The notes below the pieces were generated by a model that did not search any database, had not been told where the DNA came from, and was given only the letters and a program-made list of their open reading frames with translations. This document shows, one piece after another, positions 15,938 through 48,024 of a DNA stretch of 64,000 nt. Made by a program: the position numbers and the translations under genes. Position 1 is the first letter of the stretch. Each line of letters begins with the position of its first letter. Origin of the DNA: Turneriella parva DSM 21527. GTDB lineage: Bacteria; Spirochaetota; Leptospiria; Turneriellales; Turneriellaceae. Where the stretch lies: positions 930,001-994,000 of the forward strand of contig NC_018020.1 of assembly GCF_000266885.1 (NCBI RefSeq). The letters run 5' to 3'.

Positions 15938-17023
15938 ATGAGAACGCTTGCAACGCACTGCCTGCTGCTTTTTGTGCTGACTCGCTGCCAGAACACATCG
16001 ACCGACGAATTGCTTGCGGCCACGTCGATAAAGGGCCCGCTGCGGCTCTCACCAGTAAACGCCACGGTCGTAGAATCGCAGACGCTGCAATTTTCGGTGA
16101 CAGGGGGAAATCCCCCTTAGTTGTTTAAGGTTTTCACCGGCGGCGGCTCGGTGTCGGGCTCTGTCTATACCGCCCCGAGTGCGATTGGCTCGGCAGTCGT
16201 GACGGTCAGCGACACCGCAGGCACGAGCCAGGCTTCGCTGATTACAATCGTGAGCAATGCCAATTGCCCCGCGAATTTTATTCCTGTGCCTTTCAACAAC
16301 GCCGTGGGCACGACCGCGAACTTCTGTGTTTCAAAGTATGAAATGAAGTGCAACGGCACATGTTCGGGAGCACCGATCTCAGCTGCGGCTGGCCTGCCCT
16401 GGGTCAGCATCACGCAAACCGATGCGAAAACAGCCTGTGCAACGATGGGCGGTCAATACCACCTAATCACCAATGCCGAGTGGATGACGATTGCGCGAAG
16501 CATCGAAGCAACAGCGACAAACTGGTCGACCGGCACGGTAAACTCAGGCGCGATCAACCGCGGCCATACAGACGGGACACCCGGGGCGACACTCGCTGCC
16601 AGCTCAGATGATGACGCCTGCAATGGTACCGGGCAAAGTTGCACTGTCTTCAACGACCAGCGGCGCACGCACGTGCTGGCGAACGGTCAGACCATATGGG
16701 ATTTTTCGGGCAACGCGAAAGAATTTATCGACTGGCAGCTCACCTCTGATCGGGCGGGCTCTGGCGCGGGTGGCTATGTCGAGCTCAACACGCAGACGGT
16801 AACAACTTCAATGCCTGCAAATACCTTCAAGAGCAACACAACTGCTTTGAATTCTGCGAACGGCATCGGCCTCTACTGGCCGGCAACTGACGGCTCCAAT
16901 GGCTATGCAGCGCGCGGTGGCCACTACAGCAACAACGCACAGGCGGGTATCTACCACCTCGATTTCGGCCAGAACGCCAGTTACACCAGCGCCCAATTTG
17001 GCTTTCGCTGCGTGTACCAATAA
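15938..17023 (+). pseudogene. Lipoprotein with Ig-like and SUMF1-type domain, interrupted by in-frame TAG
   Basis: One reading frame runs from ATG 15938 to TAA 17023 and is broken only by TAG at 16118-16120. Residues 1-17 form a lipoprotein signal (LLLFVLTRC). The Ig-like domain straddles the TAG (LQFSVTGGNPP, stop, LFKVFTGGGSVSG), where a Tyr is normally expected. The rest (FCVSKYEMKC, LITNAEWMTIARSIEA, ANGQTIWDFSGNAKEF, FGFRCVY) is the SUMF1/formylglycine-enzyme-like domain common in surface lipoproteins. A G5-AAAT-C5 hairpin at 16104-16115 lies just before the TAG. Either it is a recent nonsense mutation, or the product depends on readthrough. Confidence 0.82.
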
Positions 17024-45858: not shown

Positions 45859-46539
45859 CTATTTCAGGTCTTGGTTGGCTTTTTTCCAGCTGTCTGATTT
45901 TTCATGCTGCTGGTGTTCGTCGTGCAGCGATTTCATCGGCTCGCCCTTGAGATCGATCTTCTCTTTTTTGACATCGCTGCCATCGTAGCGCAAGGCCGTG
46001 CCGGCATTGAGTTCAATATCATTCAAAAAGTCTTGCATCATCAGGTTCGGGTCACTCTGCAAACCCGTCTCGCGCACAAAATCAGTCATAATAACCTTGC
46101 CGGTAAAAAGAACAAGTCGGGTCTGCGACTTGCTCGCTTCGACGGTAAAGCCAGTACCCCGCACGCCGGCAGTCACGACCGGGGTCTTGATCGCCCATTT
46201 ACCCGAAGCATCGCGGCCCGACTTTCTGAACAGCATACTGATTGCACCGTCGGTCTGGTAATATTGCGAACCGGGGCGAATTTCGAGCGAGGTATTCTGG
46301 TTCATGAAAAACGATGCCCCATCAGACATTTGCACACCAACTTTGGCCTTGGCTTTGGTGACGACCGTGTCGCCTTCTCTGAGCACTGTGCCCAATTTCA
46401 ACCCGGTGGTTTTACCTGAACTCTTAATTTCCGCATTGCCCGAGAGATATGTCACGCGCCCTTCAACCGCACAAAGTGTGCCTGTCGCCAACAGCAAGAT
46501 GGCAGCAAAAACTTGTTTCAGGTTCGCGTGCATTTTCAT
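45859..46539 (-). CDS. FecR-domain exported protein
   Basis: A 226-residue protein with a signal peptide ending near CAVEG. The FecR domain runs from about residue 27 to 160: GRVTYLSGNAEIKSSGKTTGLKLGTVLREGDTVVTKAKAKVGVQMSDG, then FFMNQNTSLEI and TPVVTAGVRGTGFTV. The C-terminus is charged and Lys/Asp/His-rich (DEHQQHEKSDSWKK). Such proteins occur on the cell surface or in the periplasm, often without FecI. The gene lies 9 bases downstream of the broken outer-membrane protein gene, so both probably form one unit. Confidence 0.85.
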   Translation of the reverse strand: MKMHANLKQVFAAILLLATGTLCAVEGRVTYLSGNAEIKSSGKTTGLKLGTVLREGDTVVTKAKAKVGVQMSDGASFFMNQNTSLEIRPGSQYYQTDGAISMLFRKSGRDASGKWAIKTPVVTAGVRGTGFTVEASKSQTRLVLFTGKVIMTDFVRETGLQSDPNLMMQDFLNDIELNAGTALRYDGSDVKKEKIDLKGEPMKSLHDEHQQHEKSDSWKKANQDLK

Positions 46540-46548
46540 ATTACCTCT

Positions 46549-47931
46549 CTAGTAGTGATAACGTGCCGACACAGCGCTGAAAAACGTGTCGAGCTTAAAG
46601 GCATTGGCGTTCATCGCAAAATCAATGTTCACCTTATCGGCGGGCGTCCAGCCTAAGCCCATCGCGACGATCAGTTCGTCTTCGCCGAAGAATGCACGGT
46701 CGGTCGTGATGGTCTGTGTCGCGGTCTTATCGGTGCTGGTCTTGTTTGAGAAAACATTCTTGCGTACACCCATACGCGTTTTGAAGGTTTCAAAAGTCTT
46801 GTGCTCAACCGCAACCCCAACGGGTATGTAGAAATGGTCTTTCTCGAACGACAGGTTACTCTGCGTCACGTTATTCACCGATGTATATGTGACGGATGCA
46901 GTGCCTACACCGGCTGAATAAATTACCTTGAGCTTGCCCTCTTGAAACATCTGGTGGTAAGCTGCGTCTAGCGCGATGTTCAATGCGGATGCAGAAGCGC
47001 CATGCGAGATCGCCGTCGCGGCAAGGTTGGCGCCGCGAATTTCATAGGGCATCTTATACTGGTCGAAATTAGCTGCAATGATCAGGCGGTCTTGACCCAC
47101 TGGCATAACATACCGTCCAAGAAAACCGATCGATGGGGCCGCCGAACTTTTGACGGTTGTATTTTCACTGCCCGTCGTGGTTGTCGTGTTGTATTCGATA
47201 TTCATAAGCGGCAGGTCGCTCGAAAGCGACAGGTCGAGATAACCCGGCCCGAGGTTTTTCCACTGCACACCGAGGCCGACACCAATATTGTGCGCACTCA
47301 TCATGTATTTTGCGACGGTGCCGGTCGCAGCGACCGCCGTATCGACGCCGTTACGCATGTTTGCGTAGCTGACCCGCAGACCGAGATTCAGGTCGCCCAT
47401 CGCCATACCATACATGAGGTCGAGATTGCCGAAACCTTTGTTCGTTTTGTTAAGAATGCCAAGCTGTGCCCCGGTGAAATCACCGGCGTACCCGGTGACG
47501 CCGCTCGTAAGACCGCCCGCCTGCGGAAATTTATCGAACAACGCCTGAGTTGACCCGAGCGCGCTGTTGGCGTTGAGCGGTCGTCGTACGAAGACTGCCA
47601 GCTTTTGGTTCGCTGGCAGAGGCACGGTCGCACCACCCCAGACAAGGTTAGCGCCGAGCCAGCCTTCGAGATAGGCAGTGCCATAGTTCATCAGCTGGCC
47701 GGGGTTCATGAACATGTTCATATCAGATTCAATGAGACGGTTCGGTACGCCCAACCCACGGGTCTGAGTATCGAGCGGCTGGTTAACGCCGTTAATATCT
47801 GAGAGGTAACAATTATCAGATGAGCCAGCGGCACACACCGTCGGGTCGGTCGCTGTTGCCGGCGGTTCGGCAAACACCGTCGCCGGTATCGCGCTCTAGA
47901 GTAACAGAAGAACACGAGAAAAACTTTTCAT
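46549..47931 (-). pseudogene. Outer-membrane barrel protein with in-frame TAG in its signal peptide
   Basis: The open part encodes about 440 residues of an outer-membrane protein. It shows Gly/Asn-rich strands, two Cys near the N-terminus (VCAAGSSDNC) and a final YHY. The frame begins only at GTG 47877, within the expected signal peptide. Upstream, in the same frame, ATG 47931 starts MKSFSRVLLLL, then TAG at 47898-47896, then SAIPATVFAEPP. Replacing the TAG by a sense codon gives a perfect signal peptide cleaved at VFA/EPP. It is therefore either a recent nonsense mutation or an expression switch by readthrough. The fold is not a recognised named family. Confidence 0.8.
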
Positions 47932-48024
47932 AGCTCAAGGTATCGCGCCAAAGCAGAGCGTCAAGTTTGTTTGCTGAGATTTATTTCGGACACCACAGAC
48001 AAGTACATTGCCGAACCTTACGGT

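Follow-up and report, generated by a model that had tools for sequence, protein, structure and literature searches.

Results

The porin-like locus and its in-frame stop

Turneriella parva is a free-living spirochaete. The genome of T. parva DSM 21527 consists of two contigs with 4,409,302 bases, 4,384,015 of them in the chromosome, and the window analyzed here is the stretch C1:930001-994000, 64,000 nucleotides long. On its minus strand lies a porin-like outer-membrane protein gene with an amber codon in its signal peptide, followed by a gene for an exported FecR-domain protein (Table 1). Translation from the ATG at 47931 gives MKSFSRVLLLL, the TAG at 47898-47896, SAIPATVFA/EPPATATDP... and then a 442-codon body, all in one frame, in agreement with the coordinates and frame of the initial annotation. 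The body 3' of the TAG is intact, without any decay. The GTG at 47877 sits in frame in the C-region of the signal peptide, 21 nt 3' of the TAG, and a product started there would omit the signal peptide and lack an export signal, as had been proposed from the sequence. We rejected the rescue of the leader by a single frameshift, as neither alternative frame in the region of the TAG yields a signal peptide.

Table 1. Features of the porin-like locus and of the other interrupted genes. Positions are those of the window unless a contig is given.
Feature	Position	Strand	Remark
Porin-like outer-membrane protein gene	46549..47931	-	461 codons, both stops counted; broken at codon 12
ATG start codon of the porin-like gene	47929..47931	-	aligned with the G003 ATG
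In-frame TAG, codon 12, within the hydrophobic core of the signal peptide	47896..47898	-	sense codon in G003
Signal peptide region of the porin-like gene, 21 codons, predicted cleavage VFA/EPP	47869..47931	-	sequence pattern
GTG, first in-frame start past the TAG	47875..47877	-	predicted product without signal peptide
Terminator of the porin-like gene, TAG	46549..46551	-	frame continues into the FecR gene
Putative promoter, TTGACG (47964-47959), 16 nt, TACCTT (47942-47937)	47937..47964	-	TTGACR position conserved
FecR-domain exported protein, downstream, same transcription direction	45859..46539	-	Pfam FecR, E 2.6e-12
Lipoprotein-like gene, in-frame TAG 16118-16120	15941..17023	+	G003 homologue open across the TAG point
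Alginate_exp-type outer-membrane barrel protein gene, in-frame TAA	C1:3301204 (L068:1204)	+	G001 and G006 homologues continuous

The downstream FecR protein shows weak LipL45-like similarity and has an omega of 0.04. Upstream of the porin-like gene, a TTGACR element is found 33-36 nt 5' of the ATG in five members of the genus (T. parva, G003, G006, G002 and G001). This spacing puts the likely transcription start near the ATG, and therefore suggests a near-leaderless mRNA for the porin-like gene. The related Leptospira interrogans commonly has leaderless mRNAs (PMC5243855). The promoter reading is a suggestion only, because a consensus promoter scan did not call the T. parva TTGACG site. A search for known RNA families near the gene found none. 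The 10-base word GCGCGATACC occurs at 47948-47939 (minus strand), just 5' of the start, and again at 47894-47885 (minus strand), directly 3' of the TAG; it is absent from these two places in G003, and the repeat may be due to chance.

The mature protein has no Pfam family. A nine-sequence profile matches the 'Major outer membrane protein' chains 9ga1 and 9gf0 with an E of 6e-5, a partial match that covers the C-terminal 100 residues, and the NCBIfam PopA porin-like match is weak (E 0.006). The likeness to PopA-type proteins consists of these two matches. Unlike PopA, the T. parva protein falls below the PopA cut-off and belongs to a spirochaete family found in Turneriella and a few relatives. 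An AlphaFold model of the protein from three sequences has a pLDDT of 27, too low for a fold search. The signal peptide, the RYHY C-terminus and the profile matches fit a porin-like barrel, a predicted fold read from sequence. By pattern, a Sec signal peptide is present in the relatives and interrupted in T. parva.

The same gene in relatives

A protein search with the porin-like body covered 60 related genomes and found one copy in T. parva and homologues in 8 other genomes. According to a profile search, the gene is single-copy in each genome checked. A paralogue that could compensate for the lost protein was sought in the T. parva genome by both protein and profile searches, and none was found. 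No plasmid homologues were found, and an exact-match search of public genomes with the leader DNA returned no match.

The closest relative, G003, is a metagenome-assembled Spirochaetota genome (contig JAKQXK010000049.1). Its body is about 95% identical to that of T. parva across all 442 residues, and its leader, MKNSLRILIFISMTLPVAVFADPP, aligns without gaps, in the same frame and at the same length, with a sense codon opposite the T. parva TAG. The G003 signal peptide has the same length and cleavage site (VFA/DPP). Because G003 has a same-frame, same-length leader and a 95% identical body, the interrupted leader is more than a chance resemblance, and the stop-free G003 leader bears out the earlier claim of a true signal peptide broken by the TAG. 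All relatives with leader sequence (G003, G004, G006, G002, G001, G009 and G058) lack an internal stop in it. In G049 the match begins further in, and the open segment preceding it is also stop-free. The TAG at codon 12 is thus not conserved across relatives. The gene order of upstream gene, porin-like gene and FecR gene is kept in G003. The porin-like gene ends in TAA in G003 and in TAG in G004.

Selection and the age of the stop

Across 416 codons of the mature region, T. parva and G003 differ by 157 synonymous and 18 non-synonymous changes, giving a dS of 0.875, a dN of 0.019 and an omega of 0.022. Polarizing the amino-acid changes by outgroups assigns 9 to T. parva and 5 to G003 and leaves 4 ambiguous, with no significant T. 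parva excess. By a rough calculation that assumes equal branches, neutrality along the full T. parva branch would predict 0.44 x 944 = ~413 non-synonymous changes. If all 13 possible T. parva changes are counted, neutrality can have held for no more than about 5% of the branch, again roughly and on the same assumption. Given the strong purifying selection and the lack of a significant T. parva-specific excess, the stop is probably young, no older than roughly 5% of the age of the lineage if the gene has been dead since. The omega of 0.022 and the 9 versus 5 changes mean that either the stop is too young for relaxed selection to show or the gene is still functional. For the signal peptide, the omega against G003 is 0.58, a value from only 20 codons that is too short to interpret. 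Divergent signal peptides are common.

Decoding of TAG in T. parva

Termination at UAG and UAA depends on RF1. The T. parva RF1 gene (prfA) is intact, with an uninterrupted frame and a score of 465 bits against a cut-off of 423. In T. parva and G003, the RF2-like match (prfB region, L046 and L044) carries an in-frame TAA at the same place near the 5' end, which probably lies upstream of the true start.

An Infernal search finds 38 tRNA genes above the cut-off and one fragment. The published genome of type strain H (DSM 21527; CP002959/CP002960) also lists 38 tRNA genes, together with 30 pseudogenes (PMC3746428). The initial annotation had called for a search for a suppressor tRNA(CUA), and typing by ARAGORN places no CUA anticodon among the 38. 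It had also named a missing protein product together with a missing suppressor tRNA as the mark of a plain pseudogene, and the second half of this condition holds for these 38 genes. A suppressor candidate at C1:1819671-1819727 (L055, about 671-727), with CTA near the anticodon loop, was rejected since its anticodon position reads TCT. This sub-threshold match is a truncated copy of tRNA-Arg(TCT), identical at 48/49 bases to the intact gene just upstream and without its 3' part.

TAG is also a routine terminator, closing 124 of the 533 ORFs (about 23%) in a 704-kb sample of the genome; a smaller sample with longer ORFs gives 41 of 191. TAG also closes the porin-like gene itself, with the frame open into the FecR gene, so efficient suppression would yield a porin-FecR fusion.

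Other interrupted genes

The same 704-kb sample was scanned for interrupted leaders. The scan took in 512 ORFs of at least 150 aa, of which 190 have a signal-peptide-like start. Within these 704 kb, the porin-like gene is the only convincing case of an ATG-started leader with an internal stop and no alternative intact leader, and there is no excess of TAG-interrupted signal peptides. Two further formal matches (L066 and L077) have no leader of their own and look chance-like by eye.

The initial annotation counted a second TAG-interrupted surface protein in the 64 kb, and our analysis supports this. The TAG at 16118-16120 falls in the stretch for the N-terminal part of an exported, lipoprotein-like protein with a lipobox-like LTRC, and the G003 homologue is uninterrupted. 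A third case is an Alginate_exp-type gene broken by TAA. The pieces on either side of the TAA match the homologues of relatives in one frame, and the T. parva genome has two other, uninterrupted homologues of the gene. Codon usage alone is too noisy to detect interruptions, yet it led to this case. Since a TAA, not a TAG, interrupts this third exported-protein gene, the breaks are not confined to amber codons. The three interrupted exported genes are a case of scattered nonsense mutation, not of amber-specific recoding.

Discussion

Our data make it probable that the single-copy porin-like gene carries a nonsense mutation that is recent or was acquired in culture, and that the allele is null for the exported protein. 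In this account, codon 12 would have been turned into TAG by a recent mutation in the sequenced type strain. Translation would begin at the ATG at 47931 and RF1 would terminate at codon 12, releasing an 11-residue peptide, so that little or no porin-like protein would be exported. If ribosomes re-initiated at the downstream GTG, the resulting protein would stay unexported. The allele would be, in effect, a fresh pseudogene that has not yet decayed and that possibly arose in culture since isolation. The undecayed body also fits a protein that is still made. In addition, the lack of other family members in the genome and the conserved promoter-like element upstream speak against a null allele.

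In a rival reading, a near-cognate tRNA would misread the stop in a few percent of cases and the allele would be down-regulating, with reduced amounts of the full signal peptide and of exported porin. The body is intact and strongly constrained and the gene is single-copy, as this reading would have it, and such cases have been proposed from surveys of bacterial genomes. Belinky et al. 2021 (PMC7918605) argued that many bacterial in-frame stops with low omega are tolerated via readthrough, and the downstream omega far below 1 is common to their stops under purifying selection and to T. parva. However, this argument is not transferable, because the T. parva stop is private to one genome and its low omega comes from evolution before the stop. 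Most of the constraint reflects the period that preceded the mutation, the TAG is conserved in no relative, which leaves no evidence of selection keeping it, and no known RNA element lies nearby; we therefore regard readthrough as unlikely. It is quite unlikely that the TAG is a tolerated regulatory stop, with inefficient readthrough in the signal peptide of a near-leaderless mRNA setting a low level of exported porin. If so, the allele would be expressed, not dead.

A sequencing or assembly error, with a true sense codon and an intact gene, is very unlikely. An error would explain the intact body, and the published bound of <1 in 100,000 (PMC3746428) still leaves room for as many as some tens of errors in a genome. 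However, this is a finished genome polished with 1,675x Illumina and 47x 454 data (PMC3746428), such data deal best with errors of this type, isolated substitutions outside homopolymers, and three affected exported genes would require several independent errors. We consider it highly improbable that ribosomes terminate at the TAG, resume translation at or near GTG 47877 and so make a 442-residue protein that serves a new role without being exported. The GTG is in frame and close to the stop, and could be chosen as the gene start by an annotator, but the product would have no signal peptide, whereas the porin-like body needs export, and all relatives with leader sequence have a signal-peptide-like leader. 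Genome-wide amber suppression, in which a tRNA(CUA) would insert an amino acid at TAG and the cell would produce both TAG-interrupted surface proteins, was suggested by the occurrence of two such proteins within 64 kb. Against the proposed rescue stand the absence of a tRNA(CUA) among the 38 tRNA genes, the intact RF1, the use of TAG as a terminator in this gene as elsewhere, the fusion of porin to FecR that it would cause, the lack of the codon 12 TAG in relatives and the exported gene broken by TAA, and it is almost certainly wrong. Known amber-recoding systems (suppressor tRNA(CUA), pyrrolysine, TAG-sense code) share the in-frame TAG with T. parva. Unlike them, T. parva has no tRNA(CUA), retains RF1 and uses TAG as a routine terminator.

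Young bacterial nonsense pseudogenes likewise have one substitution-type stop, intact orthologues, no further decay and a lineage-specific distribution. Compared with them, a recent nonsense mutation in the porin-like gene has nothing distinctive except the placement of the stop in the signal peptide. Because of this placement, annotators may take the downstream GTG as the start and overlook the break, and an automated start call there would mask the defect.

The interrupted porin-like gene should not be taken as a sign of recoding in spirochaetes. A highly conserved surface protein, made by the relatives of T. parva, is probably missing from its type strain. Therefore, work on surface biology or porins that relies on this strain may mislead.
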